A stretch of 64,000 nt of DNA from Planctomycetota bacterium (GTDB lineage Bacteria; Planctomycetota; UBA1135; GCA-002748355). Position 1 is the first letter of the stretch; each line of letters begins with the position of its first letter. Made by a program: the position numbers and the translations under genes. The DNA lies in NCBI GenBank assembly GCA_027021385.1, contig JALUUL010000046.1:59838-123837 (forward strand). Direction: 5' to 3'. The notes under the pieces were generated by a model that was not told the origin of the DNA, ran no database searches, and worked only from the letters and a program-made list of their open reading frames with translations. This document shows positions 21,673 through 36,770 of the stretch, piece after piece.

Positions 21673-23286
21673 TCAGGGTCTCCGGTCTCCTGGGTCCGCC
21701 GGGCGGCGGGGACGGAACGGGAAGGCCCGCCGTCCAAGGAGGCGCGTGCCGAGATAGAACGCCCCGAGACCGGCGCAGACCGGAGGCCCCAGGACGACCG
21801 GCAAGCGGAGCAATAGGCCCGCGTCGGCGGAAAGGAGGCCGGAACTCCAGGCGGCCGTGCCCATGGCCGCTGCGGCCGTGGGAACCGAGGCCGCGAGGGC
21901 CTCACCGAGCGCGCGGCGCGTTCCCGCGGAGCGTTCGAAGCCCTTCCTTCGGAGGCTCAGGTGGAGCAGGAACGCGTTACCGAGGGCGGCGGCCGACGAG
22001 ATCAAGGCCATGCCCTCCGTTCCGTATCGAGGGGCGGCGAGGAGATGACCGGCGAGCGTGAACAGGAGGACCCGGAGCGCGTAGCGGACCGGAGTGCGGC
22101 GGTCCCCGAGCGCGTAATGCGCGCGCGCCAGGACCTGGACCGCGATCAATCCCGGGAGGCCGATCGCGAACATCCGCACGACACCGGCCGTCTCCCTCCC
22201 GTCCTCCGCCCCGAAATGTCCGTGCACGAAGAGCACGTCGACGAGCAGCGGGGCCAGGGCGGCGAGCCCCGCGGCCGCGGGAAGGGCGAGGAAGAGGCCC
22301 CCGGCGAGAGCCTCGTCGATCCTCGCCGCGAGCTCTTCCTTTTTGCCCTGTTCCCCGAGAAGGGAAAGGAGGGGAAAGACCGCGGTTCCGAGCGCCACCC
22401 CGAGGAGGGCGTGTGGAAAATCCAGAAGGCGATTGCCGAGGAAGAGGATCGCGTTCGCCCCCTCCCGGGGCACGAGGTACGCGGCCACCCCGTAGCTCAG
22501 GAGCACGTTGATCTGGGCGATCGAGAGCCCGAGCATCATCGGCATCATGCCCCGCGCCACCTCGCGGAGGTCCGGATCACGGAGGTCGAACCTCGGGGGG
22601 GCGAGGAGCCGGCTCCTCCGCAGCCCGGGGAACTGCAGTAAGACCTGGGCGATCCCTCCGGCGAGGAGACACAGGGCGAGACGCAGGGCCTTCTCCGCCG
22701 GGGGCAGATCGAGGGATCCGACCCAGAGCAGGCCACCGATCCAGAAGAGGTTCAGGAGCGCCGGGGCGAGCGCGGGCAGGGAAAAGCGCCCGGAGACATT
22801 CTGCGCGGCCGCCGCCAGGGTCATCAGGCAGACCGGAAGCAGGTAGGGCAGGAGGAGGTAGAGCAGGGGGCGCAGCAGGGAGGCGTAGGCTTTCCCGGCC
22901 TCGGGACCGCGGCCGCCCCCGGCCAGCCAGGACTCGGGCGCGAAGCGGGCCGCCCCGAGGCAGAGGACGAGGAGGAGGCCCAATACGAGCAGGAGGGCGC
23001 CGAAGATGGTCGCGACACAGCGGCGCCCCCCCGCTTCCCCCTCGCGCTCCATCCGCCGCGTCAGCACCGGGATGAACGAGGCGGTAAGGGCTCCCTCGCC
23101 GAAGAGCCTCCGGAAGAGGTTCGGGACGGTCCAGGCCAGCAGGAAGGCTCCGGCCTCGATCCCGCGCCCGAATTCCCCGAACATCAGCCGGTCGCGGATC
23201 AGTCCTAGCACCCGGGAGACCAGGGTCCAGGACGCGATCCGCGCCGCCGCGCCCCGGTATCCGCGCACCCCTTCCTGCCGGCCCAT
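21673..23286 (-). CDS. murJ: Lipid II flippase MurJ
   Basis: MurJ flips the peptidoglycan precursor lipid II to the periplasmic side. The protein has about 537 residues and about 14 membrane helices. Family signatures are SRVLGLIRDRLMFGEFG, AWTVPNLFRRLFGEGALTASFIPVL, and LARAHYALGDRRTPV. Start: the ORF track begins at a GTG at 23379. I chose ATG 23286 (MGRQEGVRGYRG), since MurJ helix 1 begins about 12 residues on and the longer form adds only a Gly/Pro-rich run. Its presence implies that this organism makes peptidoglycan. It is divergent from the beta-lactamase-like gene. Confidence 0.95.
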   Translation of the reverse strand: MGRQEGVRGYRGAAARIASWTLVSRVLGLIRDRLMFGEFGRGIEAGAFLLAWTVPNLFRRLFGEGALTASFIPVLTRRMEREGEAGGRRCVATIFGALLLVLGLLLVLCLGAARFAPESWLAGGGRGPEAGKAYASLLRPLLYLLLPYLLPVCLMTLAAAAQNVSGRFSLPALAPALLNLFWIGGLLWVGSLDLPPAEKALRLALCLLAGGIAQVLLQFPGLRRSRLLAPPRFDLRDPDLREVARGMMPMMLGLSIAQINVLLSYGVAAYLVPREGANAILFLGNRLLDFPHALLGVALGTAVFPLLSLLGEQGKKEELAARIDEALAGGLFLALPAAAGLAALAPLLVDVLFVHGHFGAEDGRETAGVVRMFAIGLPGLIAVQVLARAHYALGDRRTPVRYALRVLLFTLAGHLLAAPRYGTEGMALISSAAALGNAFLLHLSLRRKGFERSAGTRRALGEALAASVPTAAAAMGTAAWSSGLLSADAGLLLRLPVVLGPPVCAGLGAFYLGTRLLGRRAFPFRPRRPADPGDRRP

Positions 23287-23365
23287 ACCGCGATCCAAGC
23301 CCCCGGCCCCCGGCCGCTCAAGGGGAATCGCCCCCGGGAAGGACCCCGACTCCGGGCGACCCGGA

Positions 23366-23371
23366 TACAAT
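23366..23371 (+). promoter_or_regulatory. -10-like TACAAT upstream of the serine-hydrolase gene
   Basis: GGATACAAT, with TACAAT 67 bases before ATG 23439. The same hexamer, again with a preceding GC-rich context, is found before the kinase gene and the gene at 51929. No -35 was seen. Confidence 0.4.
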
Positions 23372-23438
23372 CGGGACACGGAGTTCGCGCTCCGGGGGAA
23401 GGGCGGAAACCGCCGACTCCCAGGAATCGGAGCGAATC

Positions 23439-25871
23439 ATGAAGCCGATCCCCTCTCTCGCGGTCCCGATCGTTTTCCTTTCCCTTCCTCTCCTCGCGCC
23501 GCGAAGCCCGGCCCAGATCTCGGCCTACCACAACGTGACGAGCGCGACGCATCAGAGCAAGTTCTCGGTTCTGTCCAAGCTGGGGTATCGCCCGATCGCC
23601 CTAGCGGTTCACGGCACGTATTCCTCGCCCCGCTACAGCGCCGTCTGGGAAAAGAAGAGCGGGCCGGCCTACTACGGCTTCCACGACCTCCAGGTCACGA
23701 AGTTCCCGGCTTTCTACAACGCCCGCCTCGCCCAGGGATACCACCCTGAAATCCTCGCCTTCCACGGATCGGGGATCTCCGTCCGGGTCGCGGGGCTCTT
23801 CGTCAAGAGCACGGGCTCGTTCGCAAGCTGGTTCGGCCTGAGCGAAACGGCCTTCAAGGACAAGTGCGCATGGGCGCGGAAGAACGGCTTCCTCCCGACC
23901 TGTGTCGCGATCTACGGATCTTCGGCGAATCCGACCTATGCGGTCATTTTCAAACCGAACCCCTCGAAGACGAGATGGAACTACGGGATCGATTCGACTC
24001 CGGCGTCCTTCCAGAAACGCTTCGACGCCTACGCCCGGGTCGCCGTCCGCCCCGCCCTCGTCGCCCACAACCCCTACGGGCGCTACGTCTCCGTCTGGCG
24101 CGACGACCGGCTCACCGCCCCCTTCTTCATGCGCCATGGGATGAACTCCACCGTCTATCAGTACTACTTCAACCTCTACGGGAAGTCCGGCTACCACCCG
24201 ATCCGGCTCGCCGCCGCCGGTTCGGGGGGCGCGACCCGCTGGGACGCGATCTTCGCCAAGAACACGACGGTGAAGAGCCGCATCTTCTCCTCGACTGGGA
24301 CCTACGTCCCCGCTCTCGCCGGCTTCGACGCCTGGATGAAGAACCTGATGGTCAAGTATCGGATCCGCGCCGCGGGTCTCGCGATCGCCTTCGGCGGGGA
24401 ACTCAAATACGCGCGCGGCTACACCTACGCGGAGAGCGGCTACCCCGTCACAAGTCCGGCGAGCGTGTTCCGGATCGCGAGCATGTCCAAACCGCTGACG
24501 AGCATCGCCGTCCACCGGGCCCAGTTCGAGAAACGGCTGAAGGTCACGGATCCAGCCTATCTCAAGCTCCCCTCGACGGGTTTCCTGGATCCCCGGACGA
24601 AGACCGTGCGCCTGATCCACCTCCTTACCCACACCGGAGGCTGGAACATCGATCTCCTCAAGTTCGACCCGATGTTCTACGACTTCCAGATCGCCAAGAA
24701 GCTGAACACGACCGTCCCGATCACGAACGCGCAGATCTGGGATTTCATGAGCCGCTACCAGGGCCTGCAGGCGAACCCCGGCACGAAGTTCGCCTACTCC
24801 AACTACGGGTTCTCGAACCTCGGTCTGATTCTCTCCGGGGTATACGCGGGGACCTATGAGAACGTCGTGCGGACGAAAGTGATGCTTCCCCTGGGCCTGA
24901 AACGCCCCTTCCTCGGCAGGAGCCTCCTCTCGCAGAGGGCCGCAGGCGAAGTCCTCTACCATCCGCGGGTTCCCGGCGTCAGGACGACCGTCCGCTCGAA
25001 CTCCGGGGCCTGGGTCCCGATCCAGTACGGGGGCTGGAGCCAGGAGAACATGAACGCCAACGGCGGATGGGTCATGGCTCCGGCGGACTACGCGAAGATC
25101 CTCGCCTCCTTCGACGTCGGCGACGCGAACCCGGTACTTCCGGCGGGCGTCGCGCGGGAGATGTGGACGCCGCCCTTTCCGAGCATCGACAACAACCTTC
25201 TCCGCGGGTGGTTCCGCCTGGCCGTGAAAGACGCTGGGAACGTGAGCCGATGGGCCTACAACCATAACGGCCGCCTGCCCGGAACCTCCTCGATCGGATT
25301 CCGGCGCGACGACGGACTCTCGGTCGTCGTGATGTGCAACGCCGATTTCAACGGGTTTTTCGGCGCCACTCACATCTACCAACTCAACGCTCTAGCCAAT
25401 AAGGTCCCGAGCTGGCCGGCGCACGACCTCTTCCCGAGTCTCGGCATCCCCCGACTAGGCTCGTTCACGAAGTTCGGAGCGAGTTGCAAGATGCCGGCCT
25501 CGACCCCGGTCCACTCGGGCGTGGGGCACCCCCTGACCGGCCGTTCGATCGGACTCAGGCTGGAGAAGGCCTACGGAGCTCGCATCGCCATTCTCTACAT
25601 GGGCTTCTCGAAGCGCTCCTGGGGGCGCATATCCCTCCCCCTCCCCCTGGACGCCCTCGGCGCCCCCGGTTGCAAACTCCTCGTGGCGCCCCTGATCCCC
25701 CTGGCAGTCCCCGTCGGTCTCAAGGGGACCGCCTACCTCACGCTGCCGATCCCCCCCTCCCCCGCCTATTCCGGAGTCCGACTCTTCACGCAATGGGTCA
25801 TTCACGCTCCCCGGGCCAACAAGCTCGGTCTCGTCCTCACGAACGGCCTCGAAACGAGGATCGGCGGTTGA
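23439..25871 (+). CDS. Secreted beta-lactamase-family serine hydrolase with N-terminal tandem repeats and a C-terminal beta domain
   Basis: This is 810 residues with a signal peptide of about 25. Residues 30-290 are five tandem repeats of about 50 residues, each with a G(Y/F).P......G pattern (for example LGYRPIALAVHG, QGYHPEILAFHG, SGYHPIRLAAAG). This is the bacterial tandem-repeat domain seen in polyglycine hydrolases. Residues of about 290-650 are a class C beta-lactamase fold with catalytic SMSK (SxxK), Tyr in YSNYGFSN, and HNG. The last 130 residues carry the shared C-terminal beta domain described in the findings. It is likely a peptidase or esterase rather than an antibiotic-resistance enzyme. 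GGAG lies about 8 bases before the ATG. Confidence 0.88.
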   Translation: MKPIPSLAVPIVFLSLPLLAPRSPAQISAYHNVTSATHQSKFSVLSKLGYRPIALAVHGTYSSPRYSAVWEKKSGPAYYGFHDLQVTKFPAFYNARLAQGYHPEILAFHGSGISVRVAGLFVKSTGSFASWFGLSETAFKDKCAWARKNGFLPTCVAIYGSSANPTYAVIFKPNPSKTRWNYGIDSTPASFQKRFDAYARVAVRPALVAHNPYGRYVSVWRDDRLTAPFFMRHGMNSTVYQYYFNLYGKSGYHPIRLAAAGSGGATRWDAIFAKNTTVKSRIFSSTGTYVPALAGFDAWMKNLMVKYRIRAAGLAIAFGGELKYARGYTYAESGYPVTSPASVFRIASMSKPLTSIAVHRAQFEKRLKVTDPAYLKLPSTGFLDPRTKTVRLIHLLTHTGGWNIDLLKFDPMFYDFQIAKKLNTTVPITNAQIWDFMSRYQGLQANPGTKFAYSNYGFSNLGLILSGVYAGTYENVVRTKVMLPLGLKRPFLGRSLLSQRAAGEVLYHPRVPGVRTTVRSNSGAWVPIQYGGWSQENMNANGGWVMAPADYAKILASFDVGDANPVLPAGVAREMWTPPFPSIDNNLLRGWFRLAVKDAGNVSRWAYNHNGRLPGTSSIGFRRDDGLSVVVMCNADFNGFFGATHIYQLNALANKVPSWPAHDLFPSLGIPRLGSFTKFGASCKMPASTPVHSGVGHPLTGRSIGLRLEKAYGARIAILYMGFSKRSWGRISLPLPLDALGAPGCKLLVAPLIPLAVPVGLKGTAYLTLPIPPSPAYSGVRLFTQWVIHAPRANKLGLVLTNGLETRIGG

Positions 25872-25929: not shown

Positions 25930-27759
25930 ATGTCCCTGATCCTCGCAGCCGCGTTCTGCGGCCTTTCGTTCCTTCCTCCCCTCCCCCCGCAACGGTCCGA
26001 GACCTCGTATCGCTACCGGGTACCGCTCGGCTCGCGGAGAGGCCGGACCCTCGCGCTGTTGCGGAACTACGACCTCCTCGGATCCTGCTCCGGGACGCCC
26101 TTCCTCCCCGGAAGCGGGACGATCGATGTCGTCCTCGCGCCCGGCGAACGGCCGGCCTTCCTGAGACTCTTTCCCGACGCCCGGCTCGTCGACCGCGGTC
26201 GTCCCTTCGCGGACATCGCGGCCGAACGCCGGGCCCGCGATCCCCAGGGACCGGACGCGAACTACTTCACGGTCGCCGAGATCGAGGCCGAACTGCTGCG
26301 ACTCCAGAAGGCCCATCCGACCCTCGCGCTTCGCGTCGACCTGAACGCCCTGACCAAGACCTCGAAGACCTGGAACGGGCATTCCCTCTACGCCCTGAAG
26401 ATCAGCGACCGCGTCGGCGCCGACGAGGGGGAACCCGCGATCCTGATCGCCTCGCAGCATCATGCGCGGGAGTTGAACGGCCCCTACATGACGATCCAGG
26501 CCGCGCGCCGCATCCTCGCAGGCTACGCGACCGACCCCCTGATCAAGGCCGCCGTCGACGCCTATGAAATCTGGATCGTCCCCTGCGTGAACCCCGACGG
26601 CGTCGACTGGGTCTGGACGAAGGACAACTACTGGCGCAAGAACCGCCGAAACAACGGGCGCGACTTCGGCGTCGACTTGAACCGCAACTATCCCTTCGCC
26701 TGGGGTCGCTGCGGCTCCTCCTCGTGGACGCGCTCCCAGGTCTACCGCGGCCCCTCGGCGGCCTCCGAGCCGGAGGTGCGCACGATGATCGCCCTCGCGA
26801 AGGCCAAGCGCTTCGAGCGCTATCTCGACTTCCACAGCTACGGCCAGGAGGTGCTTTCGACCTACAGTCCCTGCATCGCGACATCCTACGCCCGAAGCCC
26901 GGTCCTCGGATACCACGCAGGTCTGCGTAATGTCCTGGCCTCCTCGATGCGGTATCGCGTGCGGAGCCCATCGGCCTCGGGGGAAGCCCCCGAATGGCAC
27001 TGGGCCGAGAACGGCACCCTGTCCTTCCTCGTCGAGGTCGGCCGCTCGTTCCAGCCCGTCTTCACGACGACGAAGGCCGAGGAACTCAGGGTCTGGCCGG
27101 GAATCCGGAAGTGGCTCGCCTGGGTCCCGCCGCTGCGCGGGCGGCTCGAATCCCTAAAGGGCCGCCTCCCGGTCGCAGGCGCCCTGCTGCTCAAGGACTT
27201 CGGCTTCTTGTTCGGCGAACGCACACGCGCGCGCGCCGACGGGAAGTTCGCGCTCTGGGGTCCGGCCGGCATGCGCGGTCTCGTCCTCTCCGGACCCGGT
27301 CACGATTCCCGCACCCTCACCGAAACCCTGCCCGCGACCGGGACACGGACCGTCCGTTATCCGCTCCTCCCGACCCTGCCGGCCGCCGTCCTGCAGGCCC
27401 CCGCGACCCACAAGATGGGGACGCCGACTTCGATCCTCCTGAAGAGCGGGCAGGCCTTCCGCGACTACTGGATCGCGATGTCCGCCGGAACCCGGCCGGG
27501 TATCCCCCTCCCCCTCCGCACCCTGCCGTTGAACCCCGACGGACTGTTCCAAGTCTCGGCCTTCGATCTCCGGCCGATCTACAGCGGACACCTGGGCAAG
27601 ACCGACGCCAAGGGGAACACGACCGCCCGCTTCGCCTTCCCCCGCAGCGCCTTCTTCCACGGGTTCACGATCCATTTCGCGGGCATGCTCCTCGATCCGA
27701 GCTGGCCCCTCGGCGTGCAGGCCTTCACCCCGCCGATCGCGCTGCGCCTGGTCTTCTGA
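25930..27759 (+). CDS. Secreted zinc carboxypeptidase, M14 family
   Basis: This is 609 residues. A short hydrophobic N-terminus (LILAAAFCGLSFLP) suggests secretion. M14 features are the Zn ligands His and Glu in SQHHARELNG, the third His in YLDFHSYGQE, the substrate-binding DLNRNYPF, and the catalytic Glu in FLVEVGRSF. Residues after about 400 hold a beta domain, and the last 115 or so match the shared C-terminal domain by pattern. It removes C-terminal residues from peptides, presumably outside the cell. A ribosome site (GGAGG) precedes ATG 25930. It is 58 bases after the serine hydrolase and may be co-transcribed, giving two secreted hydrolases together. Confidence 0.9.
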   Translation: MSLILAAAFCGLSFLPPLPPQRSETSYRYRVPLGSRRGRTLALLRNYDLLGSCSGTPFLPGSGTIDVVLAPGERPAFLRLFPDARLVDRGRPFADIAAERRARDPQGPDANYFTVAEIEAELLRLQKAHPTLALRVDLNALTKTSKTWNGHSLYALKISDRVGADEGEPAILIASQHHARELNGPYMTIQAARRILAGYATDPLIKAAVDAYEIWIVPCVNPDGVDWVWTKDNYWRKNRRNNGRDFGVDLNRNYPFAWGRCGSSSWTRSQVYRGPSAASEPEVRTMIALAKAKRFERYLDFHSYGQEVLSTYSPCIATSYARSPVLGYHAGLRNVLASSMRYRVRSPSASGEAPEWHWAENGTLSFLVEVGRSFQPVFTTTKAEELRVWPGIRKWLAWVPPLRGRLESLKGRLPVAGALLLKDFGFLFGERTRARADGKFALWGPAGMRGLVLSGPGHDSRTLTETLPATGTRTVRYPLLPTLPAAVLQAPATHKMGTPTSILLKSGQAFRDYWIAMSAGTRPGIPLPLRTLPLNPDGLFQVSAFDLRPIYSGHLGKTDAKGNTTARFAFPRSAFFHGFTIHFAGMLLDPSWPLGVQAFTPPIALRLVF

Positions 27760-27819: not shown

Positions 27820-28917
27820 ATGAGAGGAGAACCCGAACTTCCCGGTGAGGGTCCGGTCGCCGAGACCGCACTCTCGTCGCTCAACGGGAAACGCGGCGAA
27901 CTCCGCGTCCGCGGCTACCGCATCGAGGAATGCGCGCACCGCCTGTCCTTCGAGGAGGCCTGCCTTCTCCTCTGGGATGGGGAACTCCCCGGTGCAAAGA
28001 GGCTCTCCGAGTTCCGGGCCGGCCTCGCGCCCTACAGGGAGATCCCGGAGGATCTCGCGCTGCTCGCGCTTCCCCTCGCGGAGGGGGACCCCCTCCGGGC
28101 CCTGCGCGCCCTCCTCGCGCTCTGTCCCCGCCTCCATCCGCGCTGGCCGAAGACCCCCCGGACCCTCGCCCTCGCGACGACCGCCCTGACCCCGGGCCTC
28201 TGCGCGACCCTTCTCCGCGCCCGGGACGGCCTGCCCCCCGTCCCCTCCGACCCGAACCTTCCGCTCGCGGAGGACTTCCTCCGAATGTGCCGCGGGGGGC
28301 CGGCGAAGGCCGCCGAGGACCGGGCCCTCGAGGCCTCCTGGATCCTCCACCTCGAGAACGGCCTGAACGCCTCCAGCTTCGCGGCCCGGGTCGCGGCCTC
28401 CACCGGCGCCTCCCTCGACGCGGCCGTGATCGCCGCCCTCGCGACCCTCGAGGGCCCCCGTCACGGAGGAGCGAACCGTGCGGTCCACGCCTTCCTCCGG
28501 GACCTCGAGGACCCCTCGGAAGCTCCGAGACGGGTCGATCGCGCTCTCGAGGCCGGGGAGCGCATCCCCGGTTTCGGCCACCGCGTCTTCGAGGTCGACG
28601 ACCCCCGGGCCGTCGCGATGCGTTCCCTCGGGGAGGAACTCCGTCGTTTCCTCGGGAAACCGGGTCTCTTCCCCCGCGCCGAGGCCCTGGCCGAGGCCCT
28701 CCGGAGCCGCAGGCCCCTCGTCCAGAACATCGACCTCTGGTCGGCCCCCCTCTGGGACGCCCTGGGTTTCCCTCCCGCATTCTTCCCCTGCCTCTTCGCG
28801 ATCGGGCGCATGCCGGGCTGGACCGCCCATGCCCTGGAGGCCCGGGAAGGCCGGATGATCCGCCCCCGGGCGGCCTACGCGGGCCCTCCTCCGCGGAGCT
28901 TTCCCGAAGCTTCCTGA
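27820..28917 (+). CDS. Citrate synthase-family protein with an altered catalytic His
   Basis: The 365-residue protein is of the citrate/2-methylcitrate synthase fold, which condenses an acyl-CoA with an oxoacid. Conserved pieces are LEGPRHGGANRAVHAF (the His that binds oxaloacetate), FGHRVFEVDDPRA (catalytic Asp in DPR), FAIGRMPGWTAH and RPRAAYAGP. The catalytic His position, normally in ADHGLNAST, reads LENGLNASSF, so His is replaced by Asn and the preceding Asp by Glu. The DNA confirms Asn (AAC). The enzyme may be inactive as a citrate synthase or act on another reaction. The start ATG 27820 gives a family-normal length. It is 60 bases after the M14 gene on the same strand. Confidence 0.8.
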   Translation: MRGEPELPGEGPVAETALSSLNGKRGELRVRGYRIEECAHRLSFEEACLLLWDGELPGAKRLSEFRAGLAPYREIPEDLALLALPLAEGDPLRALRALLALCPRLHPRWPKTPRTLALATTALTPGLCATLLRARDGLPPVPSDPNLPLAEDFLRMCRGGPAKAAEDRALEASWILHLENGLNASSFAARVAASTGASLDAAVIAALATLEGPRHGGANRAVHAFLRDLEDPSEAPRRVDRALEAGERIPGFGHRVFEVDDPRAVAMRSLGEELRRFLGKPGLFPRAEALAEALRSRRPLVQNIDLWSAPLWDALGFPPAFFPCLFAIGRMPGWTAHALEAREGRMIRPRAAYAGPPPRSFPEAS

Positions 28918-28970
28918 AGGATTCCGAGGCTCCGCTGCTCCCGGGACTGGCCCCGATCCCCTCCGGGGTC

Positions 28971-28976
28971 TATCCT
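28971..28976 (+). promoter_or_regulatory. -10-like TATCCT upstream of the ApaH-like gene
   Basis: TATCCT followed by a T-rich stretch (GCTTTTCCC), 117 bases before ATG 29093. If used, the hairpin at 29039-29072 falls inside the 5' leader. Confidence 0.35.
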
Positions 28977-29038
28977 GCTTTTCCCAATGGGGCCGCGGAG
29001 GCGCGTTCCTCCGTCCCCTGTTTGGATCGGAAGCCCCG

Positions 29039-29072
29039 AAACACCGGCACCTGTTCGCAGTGGCCGGTGTTT
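29039..29072 (+). terminator. 10-bp hairpin in front of the ApaH-like gene
   Basis: AAACACCGGC and GCCGGTGTTT pair perfectly around a 14-base loop. It is 120 bases after the citrate-synthase-like stop and 20 bases before the next start, so it may be the terminator of the former or a leader hairpin of the latter. Confidence 0.5.
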
Positions 29073-29092
29073 CCCTGTACGGCGAGGAAGGC

Positions 29093-29827
29093 ATGAGCGG
29101 GCGCAGGATCTTCATCGGCGACGTGCAGGGTTGCGCCGCGACCCTCGAGGCTCTGCTCGCCCGCTGCGGGGCCGTGCGGGGCGCGGATCGCCTCCATTTC
29201 GTCGGCGACCTCGCACGTCGCGGGCCCTCGAGCGCCGAGGTCCTGGCCCTCGCGAGGGATTGGGAGGCCCGCTGCGTCCTCGGCAACCACGAGGCCCTGC
29301 TCCTCGAGCGGGGGATCCTCGAGGGGAGGGGCACCGACCCGGAGGCCCCCGACCTCGCAAAGGACCCCCGGTCCCCCCGTTTCGCGGCCTGGATCCGGGA
29401 CTGGCCGCTGGCCCGCCTGATCGACGGAAGCATCCTCCTCGTCCACGCCGCGGTGCCCCCGGCGTTCTGGAAGGCGCGCCGCCCCGCCGACCTCGCCCCC
29501 CTCCTCGCCCATCCCCTCCCCGAGCCGGACCGGGCCTGGGACGAGATCCAGAGCTTCGCCCTCACGGCGCGGTACTGCGATCCCGCGGGCCGCCGGCCCC
29601 GGACGGACTTCCCGCCGCCCCCACCCCCCTTCGAGGCCTGGTTCGAGTTCTACGAGGGGGCCTTCACGGTCGTCTTCGGGCACTGGGCGCGGCGGGGCCT
29701 CGTCGTCCGCGAAGGCCTACGCGGCCTCGACACGGGTTGCGTCTACGGCGGTCGGCTCAGCGCCTGGATCGCGGAGGAGGATCGGATCGTGCAGGTACCC
29801 AGGGCGCCGGTCGACGAGCCGGGGTGA
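29093..29827 (+). CDS. ApaH-like symmetrical bis(5'-nucleosyl)-tetraphosphatase / metallophosphatase
   Basis: This 244-residue calcineurin-type metallophosphatase is most like ApaH, which splits Ap4A to two ADP. Metal-binding motifs are IFIGDVQGC (GDxxG), FVGDLARRGPSS (GDxxxRG), CVLGNHEALLL (GNHE), and LLVHAAVPP plus VFGHWARRG (His ligands). I use ATG 29093 (MSGRRIF), since AGGAAG lies just upstream; the ORF-track start at 29060 adds 11 residues from the hairpin side. It is convergent with the acetyltransferase gene. Another member of the phosphoesterase family (PrpE-like) remains possible. Confidence 0.85.
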   Translation: MSGRRIFIGDVQGCAATLEALLARCGAVRGADRLHFVGDLARRGPSSAEVLALARDWEARCVLGNHEALLLERGILEGRGTDPEAPDLAKDPRSPRFAAWIRDWPLARLIDGSILLVHAAVPPAFWKARRPADLAPLLAHPLPEPDRAWDEIQSFALTARYCDPAGRRPRTDFPPPPPPFEAWFEFYEGAFTVVFGHWARRGLVVREGLRGLDTGCVYGGRLSAWIAEEDRIVQVPRAPVDEPG

Positions 29828-29877: not shown

Positions 29878-30513
29878 TCAAGCCTCGTCGGCGAGGCATT
29901 CGATCTCGCCGCCGGCCTTCCAACGCAAGGCCGAACCGCAATTGCCGCAGCGCACGCCCTGCTCCTTCAGATCGAACTCCGGCCCGTGCACGAAAGTCGC
30001 AACCCTCCACCCGCAGCGGCAGACGTAGCCGAGCCGACGCGCCGGATTCCCGGCCACGAGAAGATGCGGGCCGACGTCGTGGATGACGACGCTCGACATT
30101 CCGACCGTCGCGAACTCTCCGATCGTGATGCCGGGCGCGATGCAGCAGCCCGCGCCGAGGGTCGCGCCCCGCCGGACCCGGGTCAGCATCTTCTCCTCGG
30201 TCCGAGCGCTCGGAAGGATTTCACTGACCTCCCAATTCGCGGCGCGCGGGAATCGGTCGTTCGTGAAGGTCGTGTGGGCTCCGACCATGACCCCGTCCTC
30301 GAGGGTCACGCCGTTGCAGATGTATACGAAGGCGTTGATCTTGCAGAAATCCCCGATCCGGACGTCGTAGGCGATATAGGACTTCTCCCCGATCAGGGTT
30401 TCGGACCCGATCTGGACGCCCTTGCGGATATGGACCTGGCTGTAGACCCGCGTCCCCTCGCCGATGGCGACGTCGTCCTCGAGGATGGCGGTTTCGTGGA
30501 TGAAGGATTCCAT
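29878..30513 (-). CDS. Left-handed beta-helix N-acetyltransferase (WbpD/WlbB-like) with a Cys-rich tail
   Basis: This is 211 residues. Residues 1-170 are hexapeptide repeats of a trimeric left-handed beta-helix transferase (IHETAILEDDVAIGEGT, ILIxN-type turns, GAHTTFTNDRFPRA). The diagnostic ending VAGNPARRLGYVC is typical of UDP-amino-sugar acetyltransferases of the WbpD/WlbB group, which make cell-surface sugars. The tail has CRCG and CGNCG, four closely spaced Cys that could bind zinc. The ORF-track start at 30852 adds over 110 low-complexity residues. ATG 30513 (MESFIHETA) is where this family starts. It has no sugar-nucleotide partner gene nearby. Confidence 0.85.
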   Translation of the reverse strand: MESFIHETAILEDDVAIGEGTRVYSQVHIRKGVQIGSETLIGEKSYIAYDVRIGDFCKINAFVYICNGVTLEDGVMVGAHTTFTNDRFPRAANWEVSEILPSARTEEKMLTRVRRGATLGAGCCIAPGITIGEFATVGMSSVVIHDVGPHLLVAGNPARRLGYVCRCGWRVATFVHGPEFDLKEQGVRCGNCGSALRWKAGGEIECLADEA

Positions 30514-30850: not shown

Positions 30851-31219
30851 ATGAAGCTCTACCACACGATGATCCGCATCCGGGATCTCCAGCGGAGCCT
30901 GGAGTTCTACCAGGGCTTCCTCGGCCTCGAGGAGGTCCGCCGTCACGAGATCGGGGAGGAGGCGACCCTCGTCTTCCTGTCCGATCACGAACGGAACTAC
31001 TTCCTCGAACTGACCTGGAACAAGGACGGCCGAGACTACGTGCTCGGCGACCAGTTCGGCCATCTGGCCTTCCTCGTCGAAGACCTGGAACCCATCATCC
31101 GGAAGATCGAAGAACAGGGCTGGACCTTCCGCCGCTCCCGTCCGGAACTCTCGAGCAAGTATGTCTTCATCCAGGACCCGGACGGTTACGATATCGAGAT
31201 CCTGGAAGCCCGGAGCTGA
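30851..31219 (+). CDS. gloA: Glyoxalase I / VOC-family metalloprotein (lactoylglutathione lyase-like)
   Basis: This is 122 residues with two beta-alpha-beta-beta-beta units. Metal ligands fit GloA: His5 in KLYHTMIRIRD, Glu in NYFLELTW, His in FGHLAFLV and Glu in DIEILEARS. Together with VFIQDPDGY this matches the Ni/Zn glyoxalase I that detoxifies methylglyoxal. Other VOC enzymes share the fold, so the substrate is inferred. ATG 30851 has AGGA upstream. The following gene starts 53 bases later on the same strand and may be in its operon. Confidence 0.85.
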   Translation: MKLYHTMIRIRDLQRSLEFYQGFLGLEEVRRHEIGEEATLVFLSDHERNYFLELTWNKDGRDYVLGDQFGHLAFLVEDLEPIIRKIEEQGWTFRRSRPELSSKYVFIQDPDGYDIEILEARS

Positions 31220-33923: not shown

Positions 33924-36770
33924 TCAGTACCCGAGCGTCAGGCTGACTCCGTTGCTGAAGACCATCCCCGCCGGAAAGAGCTTGCCGTCCAGGAACCGGT
34001 CCTGACAGAGAACCCTTCCACCGACCAGGGTCCGATCCGAGGGGATCGGAAGTGGGAGGCTCCAGGTCGTCCCCGTTCCGGTTCCGAGGATCCAGAAACC
34101 CGAGAGGGACAGAAAGGAACGAAAACCCCCGAGAATTGGGATCGGGTCCGCAGCAGGCAGGCCGAGCAACAGAACGAGGATCGGAAGGCTCTTTCCGGAC
34201 CAGGTGGTGACCTTGGCCGTCGCCCCGAGCACCGGGTCCTCGGCCCAGAGCTGGGCCGGCCCCAGGACGTCGCCGACGGAATGCGTCGTCGCCCCGTTGT
34301 CGATCCGGCAGAGCTGCATGTCCGCTCCCGGGGAGGGGGTCCGCGTCGCCGAGAAGAACAAGCCGCCCCCGAGCACCGCGAAGCGGAGATCGCGACCGAG
34401 GACATTGTGGGGTCCGCTCCCCTTGGATCCCGGCAGGAGGTCCAGATCCGTGATCTTCTTGGTCTTCAGATCGAAGTAGGCGAGTTCGTCCCCCTGGGTC
34501 GGGTGGTTCAAGCTGGTGAAGTACATCCTCCGGCTTCCGACCCCCGTCAAGTAGCCGTACCCGCCCCGATTCCCCGGCATCGTGAGGAAGGCGCCCGTTC
34601 CCGCGGCCGTCCCGTCGCTCGACCAGAGGACGGAGGCCCGGGTCGGAACATCGCCGAGGAAGAACAGCCTTCCGGCCACGTCCTGGATCCCGAAGGGGTT
34701 GCCCCCCGTGGTTCCGGGGATCAGGTCCTTCAGCAGAACGGTCCCGGTCGAACTGAAGTCGGAGATCCAGAGTTCGGGCCCGTACTTGAAATGGGTCGCG
34801 CGGAACACGACCTTCCCCCGGAAGAGGGTCAGGAACGCGGGATCGCTGCCTGGAATGCCCGGGTTGATGTCCTTCAGGAGCTTCGTGCCCGCCGCCGTTC
34901 CGTCCGTGATCCAGAGTTCGTTGCCCGTCGTGCCGGAGCGGTTCGCCGCGAAGAGGACCTTGCCCGGCAGGCCCGCGAAGGAATCGGGATTGGAACCCAA
35001 GGTTCCGGTCCTGATGTCCTTCAGGACGAAGGTTCCGGCGGCGGTCCCGTCGCTGACGCAGGGTTCCTCCCCCTTGCCCGGGATCCACGCCGAGAAGAAG
35101 ACCTTGTCCCCGATCCCGGCGAGGCGCCTTGGATTCGAGCTGCCGGTCGGGTGCAGATCCTTGACGAGTCTCGTCCCCGCGGAGGTCCCGTCCGTCACCC
35201 AGAGTTCGAAACCGGACTTCGGATCGTAGCCCGTGAAGAAGACCTTCCCGCCCGCACGTGCGAGGCTCCCCGCCGCCCCGTTTCCCGGACCGGGGTTCAC
35301 GTCCTTGACGAGCCTCGTTCCCGCCGCCGTTCCATCGCTGATCCAGAGTTCGCGGCCGTGTTTCCCGGTCCCGGTCCCGTCGCTGGCGAGGAAGAGAAGC
35401 CGTCCGAAGAAGGGCGTGACGGCATCCACCTGGTCCGATTCCGTGACCGGGCCCAGGGTCCAGGTCCCGAGGTCCTGGACCTTCGTCGTCGCGGCCGTCC
35501 CCGAACTGACGCAGATTTCCGAGCCGTAGGTCGGATGGTCGCTCGTGAAGGCGACCGTGCCGGCCCCGAGCTCGGTCGTATACCAGGCGTATCCGCTCCG
35601 GCTCCCCGGGTAGAGGTCGACGATGCGATGCGTTCCCGCCGCCGTCCCGTCGCTGACCCAGGGTTCATAGCCGTAGCCCGACTGGAAAAGGGAGAAGAAC
35701 AGCTTCCCTCCGCTGGGCTGCAGGAACCTGGGCTTTCCGGGAAGGGACTTCACGAAGAGCTTCGTTCCCAGGGCCGTCCCGTCGCTCGACCAGAGGTCGT
35801 ACCCCGAGGTCGAGGACCGGCTCGTGAACCAGGCCTTCGTCCCCGAGGGGTCGGGGACCATCTCCTGGACGTAGGCCGAACTCCGCCCGGGGATCAGATC
35901 CTTCACGAGCTTCGTCCCCGCCGCCGTCCCGTCCGTGACCCAGAGCTCCCTCCCCTCACGGTAGGTCTTCATCGTGAAGAGCATCTTCGTTCCGAGGAAC
36001 CGGAACCTCGCGGGGTGCCCGCTCGCGCTGCTCGACACGGTTCGCACGAGGACCTTCGTGCCCGCGGAGGTCCCGTCCGTCACGAAGAGGTACCCGTAGA
36101 ACGAGGCCGAGACGTAGACCGAGAGCTGGAAATAGGCCCGGATCCCGGCCGGATCCGGGCTGAGGTATCTGAGCGTGACCTTCCCCCCGTAGCTCGCGCT
36201 CAGGTCGCGGACCATCTTCGTGCCCGTCGAGGTTCCGTCGCTGATCCAGAGGCCGCGGCCCTTGGGGCTGTCCGCGAAGAACAGGACCTTCCCCCCGGCC
36301 ATCGGAACCGGGTTCTACGCGTTCGAGCCGGTCCCCCCGGAGACGACGTCCATGAAGAGGCGGGTTCCGGTCGTCGTTCCGTCGCTGATCCAAGGTTCCT
36401 TCCCATGGACTCCGTCGTCCGCGACGAAGTAGAGCTTTCCGCCCTTCACGAAGAAGTCCCCGGATCCCGAGCCGGGGGTGCCGCTCCGGATGTCCTTGAC
36501 GAGCGAGATCTTCCTCCCGTCGAAGGCGAAGAGTTCCCGGCCTCGGGCGAAGGTCTCGGCCGGAAACACCATCCGGCCACCGAGTTTCGAGAACTTGAAA
36601 CCCTCCGCAAAGGAGCCCCGGGCCTTCCCGATCGAGGGCAGGCTTCCGACCACTGGCGAGACGGGTGTCGTGTTGATGTTCTTGATGACCTTCAGACTCT
36701 GGGCCGGAAGAGAAGGCATGAAGAGGGCGGACAGAAGAAGAAGAAGGAGGGGAGGACGCGAGAAGGGTAT
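33924..36770 (-). pseudogene. ELWxxDGT-repeat secreted protein interrupted by an in-frame TAG, with ATA at the expected start
   Basis: The frame encodes about 13 repeats of the form LWISDGTAAGTKLLKDI (a beta-propeller-like, secreted type) and the shared C-terminal domain. The track shows two ORFs in the same frame (33924-36302 and 36315-37061), separated by a TAG codon at 36315-36317, within a repeat (GGTGSNA, stop, NPVPMAGGK). No frame change is needed. The natural start would be MPFSRPPLLLLLLSALF..., a signal peptide; its first codon is ATA (36768-36770), with GGAG 8 bases upstream. No ATG/GTG lies before the signal region (only a TTG at 37061). So two lesions are visible. Assembly error, or stop suppression, cannot be excluded. 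Confidence 0.75.

Follow-up and report, generated by a model that had tools for sequence, protein, structure and literature searches.

The window analysed here, a stretch of 64,000 nucleotides, carries at 27820..28917 on the plus strand a complete open reading frame for a citrate-synthase-family protein of 365 residues, hereafter CS2. The protein matches PF00285 with 302.3 bits (gathering cut-off 27) over positions 6-357 of the 357-position profile, which places it within the superfamily; its TIGR01800 score of 273.9 bits lies below the 421.3 cut-off and keeps it outside that curated subfamily. Profile matches and synteny identify its surroundings as the upstream marker MurJ (21673..23379, minus strand), an M14 zinc carboxypeptidase (25930..27759, plus strand), a metallophosphatase (PF00149; 29093..29827, plus strand) whose position next to CS2 is conserved across the order, and two downstream markers, a hexapeptide acyltransferase (29878..30501, minus strand) and a glyoxalase-fold protein (30851..31219, plus strand).

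Residue numbers were taken from the chain coordinates of pig citrate synthase (2cts/1cts), found by a solved-structure search, in which the histidine of the ADH-type motif is His238, that of GPLHG is His274 and that of GYGH is His320, with Arg329 in DPR, Asp375 in NVD, Arg401 in SRA and Arg421 in ERP. The corresponding CS2 motif is WILHLENGLNASSFAARV, which reads HLENGLNASS where relatives have H(A/S)(D/E)HxxNAST, and Asn180 (codon AAC, 28357..28359) occupies the position of the oxaloacetate-site residue His238, a column with His in all 65 other aligned citrate synthases. Among the residues expected of a functional synthase, only this histidine is missing. The catalytic triad is complete in the alignment, with His215 (codon CAC, 28462..28464, within GPRHGG) at His274, His254 (28579..28581, within GFGH) at His320 and Asp305 (28732..28734, within NID) at Asp375, as are the carboxylate-binding arginines Arg263 (28606..28608, within DPR), Arg330 (28807..28809) and Arg348 (28861..28863) at Arg329, Arg401 and Arg421, the last of which acts in the neighbouring subunit. 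A second substitution, Arg214 (codon CGT, 28459..28461), adjoins the catalytic histidine at pig Leu273, where 64 of the 65 other rows have leucine. All of these codons lie on the plus strand.

The first-pass annotation had taken the replaced residue for catalytic His274, and had counted the oxaloacetate-binding histidine and the aspartate of DPR as intact key residues. The change from His to Asn in the ADH motif is real, but its assignment was mistaken: the pig numbering rules out loss of the catalytic histidine, the replaced histidine is one of the oxaloacetate site, and the functional residue of DPR is Arg329, its aspartate not being the catalytic one. The altered position thus belongs to the oxaloacetate side of the active site and not to the activation of acyl-CoA. 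In the pig complexes, His238 itself contacts the substrate carboxylate. An asparagine side chain is also able to donate a hydrogen bond. A structure predicted with a two-sequence alignment as input reached a pLDDT of 43.5, too low to be informative.

Published work describes His235, His238, His274 and His320 as the active-site histidines of the pig enzyme (PMC4524684), and His274 and Asp375 as bonding acetyl-CoA (PMC8455617). In the Thermoplasma enzyme, oxaloacetate is bound by His262 and Arg271, and the H222Q variant, altered at the His274 equivalent, is nearly dead (PMC4601594). The catalytic residues of the Metallosphaera enzyme are His214, His253 and Asp307, and one passage on that enzyme lists contacts other than the His238 equivalent (PMC6386500). 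Alignment identifies Metallosphaera His214 as the histidine of GPLHGG. Among the papers searched, none gave a measured effect of any His238 substitution, and none treated citrate synthase together with His229.

Two PF00285 genes are present in the genome, which measures 3.69 Mb and is 93% complete: CS2 and, on contig C54, a canonical paralogue, CS1, with the motif HADHEQN. The second citrate synthase that the first-pass annotation proposed to look for is therefore present, and CS2 as the sole citrate synthase of the cell is ruled out. No match to PrpD (PF03972) was found in this 93% complete genome, and a methylcitrate synthase role for CS2 is therefore unlikely.

The order of genes around CS2 recurs in related genomes. 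In G002, which represents another genus of the same family, the order p205-murJ-M14-CS2-phosphatase-acyltransferase matches that of the window, with the M14 gene directly upstream of a fully canonical CS2. Unlike G002, the window has a further gene inserted between murJ and M14 (23439-25871, plus strand); its product carries BTRD1 repeats and, after them, a beta-lactamase-fold domain. The order is p205-murJ-CS2-phosphatase-acyltransferase-glyoxalase in G006 and CS2-phosphatase-acyltransferase-glyoxalase in G003. CS2 also adjoins the phosphatase gene, and carries His238, in four genomes from a second family of this order (G020, G026, G056 and G093), where murJ or the M14 gene lies close by (the latter in G020 and G026). 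The pairing of CS2 with the PF00149 gene (27820-29827 in the window) thus occurs in two families of the order. At the same locus in three genomes of the family of CS2 (G001, G005 and G007), CS2 was not found though the neighbouring genes are kept. Since G002 and the four genomes of the other family retain histidine at the syntenic position, His is, on this comparison, the ancestral state at the CS2 locus, and the locus itself is, judged by its gene order, that of an old second citrate synthase common across the order.

Close relatives are divided at the substituted position, with G002 keeping His and G006, from a third genus, carrying Asn. The G006 protein shares about 40% identity with CS2, likewise retains His274, His320, Asp375, Arg329, Arg401 and Arg421, and encodes its asparagine motif with different codons (GAG-AAT-GGT-CTC-AAT). 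This independent genome rules out a sequencing error or misalignment and, together with the histidine in all 65 other synthases, shows that H238N did not arise from chance or error. The substitution is also accompanied by others. Of the 42 columns with an invariance of 95% or more, CS2 departs from the consensus at 11 and the G006 protein at 9, and no other complete row at more than 3. Seven of the near-invariant columns carry identical derived states in the two proteins, which in CS2 positions are 30 Y>V, 92 M>L, 180 H>N, 214 L>R, 257 Y>F, 304 V>I and 323 T>P. Because these seven states are shared despite an identity of only about 40%, H238N and its companions appear to reflect one inherited remodelling followed by constraint, which argues against both error and free decay. 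Both Asn proteins evolve at about 2 to 2.8 times the rate of the His-bearing orthologue in relative-rate tests. The G002 orthologue scores 470 against TIGR01800 and passes its cut-off, whereas all of the Asn-bearing or dead members fail.

Phylogenetic trees place CS2 and the G006 and G003 proteins in one group with support of 100/99, and of 96/94 without the seven signature columns, but the three branches are long and the usual caution about long-branch joining applies to this grouping. An AU test (p = 0.375) does not reject a grouping of the three with the His-bearing CS2 proteins of the syntenic loci. The case for orthology is thus carried by synteny and shared residues, with which the tree is consistent.

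Further Asn cases were sought in this order and in a sample of one phylum. Among 154 genomes of the order, the CS2 and G006 genes were the only matches to a degenerate DNA pattern written for the Asn motif, and a looser pattern gave two further matches among 392 genomes of the phylum, neither of them an Asn-type synthase. One of these (G000:C69) is not a citrate synthase, as only two are listed for the genome; the other (G359) encodes Trp where the motif requires Ser or Thr. A scan of a contig database returned a single distant match, from Leifsonia, which is His-bearing. Two Asn-bearing sequences are therefore known, from a family sampled by eight genomes.

The orthologue in G003, which belongs to the same genus as G006, has gone further. 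Its motifs HAEGGLDLTT, SPIQGEVS and NVQ correspond to H238G, N242D, H274Q and D375Q, and its C-terminus is shortened, while His320, Arg329, Arg401 and Arg421 are kept. The catalytic residues whose loss defines a pseudo-enzyme are thus gone from the G003 protein and present in CS2 and the G006 protein. On these substitutions, the G003 protein is predicted to be one that cannot act as a normal citrate synthase. Its frame nevertheless stays open over 351 codons with synonymous sites near saturation relative to G006 (pS 0.72), and a simple simulation of neutral decay to 60-80% identity left a stop-free frame in only 0.3-3% of runs. In relative-rate tests, the G003 protein evolves at roughly double the rate of its G006 sister (p 0.0007-0.014).

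The reading we favour, which we put close to an even chance, is that CS2 is a repurposed enzyme of the citrate synthase fold whose oxo-acid pocket is altered and whose canonical activity is weak, and in which catalysis probably persists. This old second synthase has been remodelled around the pocket by H238N, L273R and the five further shared changes, and has retained the triad and the three carboxylate-binding arginines. CS1 would probably perform housekeeping citrate synthesis, and CS2 would most likely still activate acetyl-CoA through His274 and Asp375, since retention of the triad at about 40% identity suggests that catalysis is still selected in both Asn lineages. Oxaloacetate may be bound more weakly, or another 2-oxo acid preferred, either of which would much reduce canonical activity. 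The activity of CS2 appears not to be essential in G003, as triad residues have been lost there; it may have been dispensable enough for His274 and Asp375 to go. Three points weigh against this account, namely that a hydrogen bond from Asn and compensation by Arg214 might allow normal activity, that the G003 orthologue shows catalysis can vanish altogether at this locus, and that just two Asn-bearing sequences are known.

The main rival, and a serious one, is that CS2 is a pseudo-enzyme without turnover whose role would be to bind ligands or to act as a protein partner, for instance by sensing di- or tricarboxylates or by pairing with CS1 subunits. The first-pass annotation had offered a pseudo-enzyme or a new specificity; its premise of a lost His274 was wrong and the triad is complete, but the idea lives on in changed form because Asn is kept in a second genus, CS1 is encoded elsewhere and the G003 orthologue lacks His274 and Asp375. 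That orthologue, which keeps His320, three arginines and an open frame despite H238G, H274Q and D375Q, favours the absence of turnover, as does the precedent of Caulobacter crescentus CitA, whose role in the cell cycle is independent of catalysis and persists when the protein is catalytically inactive (PMC7083601). CitA and CitC resemble CS2 as paralogues alongside another functional citrate synthase, and CitC fails to complement an E. coli gltA deletion; however, CitA itself is a working synthase, and its inactive forms are laboratory constructs (PMC7083601). Among the papers searched, no relevant one links citrate synthase with the term pseudoenzyme. Against a CS2 without turnover, His274, His320 and Asp375 are all kept by CS2 and the G006 protein at about 40% identity, which would be unexpected if catalysis were unselected, and we consider this rival rather less probable than an enzyme with weak canonical activity.

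A narrower form of the repurposed-enzyme reading, in which H238N and L273R confer specificity for an oxo acid other than oxaloacetate and the G003 protein is a non-catalytic ligand-binding protein, is unlikely as a whole. If it were true, one locus would hold a natural series running from enzyme to new enzyme to pseudo-enzyme.

Somewhat less probable than a pseudo-enzyme is that CS2 is an ordinary secondary citrate synthase in which Asn180, perhaps helped by Arg214, takes over the function of His238. The intact triad and carboxylate-binding arginines, the capacity of Asn as a hydrogen-bond donor and the slower evolution of the G006 copy relative to that of its congener G003 would all suit such an enzyme, but none of the 65 other synthases tolerates a change at His238, the seven changes inherited together suggest that the site is altered, and the function is already covered by CS1. 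Free decay with no function left would fit the fast evolution of CS2, its absence from the locus in three genomes of the family and the degraded G003 copy, but is very improbable given frames intact at near-saturated synonymous divergence, dN/dS below 1, the rarity of stop-free frames in the neutral simulation, and the shared derived residues and retained triad.

With His238 replaced and the triad kept in CS2, and with His-bearing and triad-less orthologues at hand, the locus offers a ready-made series for probing the role of this residue. It also informs how a central metabolic enzyme can be repurposed once a second synthase bears the housekeeping load.

CS2 retains the fold family, length, triad and carboxylate-binding arginines of type II citrate/2-methylcitrate synthases (PF00285, TIGR01800), and appears to descend from a canonical type II member at the same locus, from which it differs by His238 to Asn, Leu273 to Arg and five more changes at near-invariant positions. 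Within this fold and phylum, paralogues from G005, G007 and G228 show the natural replacement of another active-site residue that is invariant elsewhere, Asp375 being Glu in them (NVEFYKG); unlike CS2, these form a separate clade and have His238 intact. Elsewhere in the sampled genomes, one citrate synthase match (G007:C166) contains an in-frame TAG, and in the G278 citrate synthase the otherwise invariant Asn242 is replaced by Pro (HELPAST). Within the window, a long protein built from repeats of the ELWVTDGTAAGTKLV type is encoded at 33924-36302 on the minus strand.
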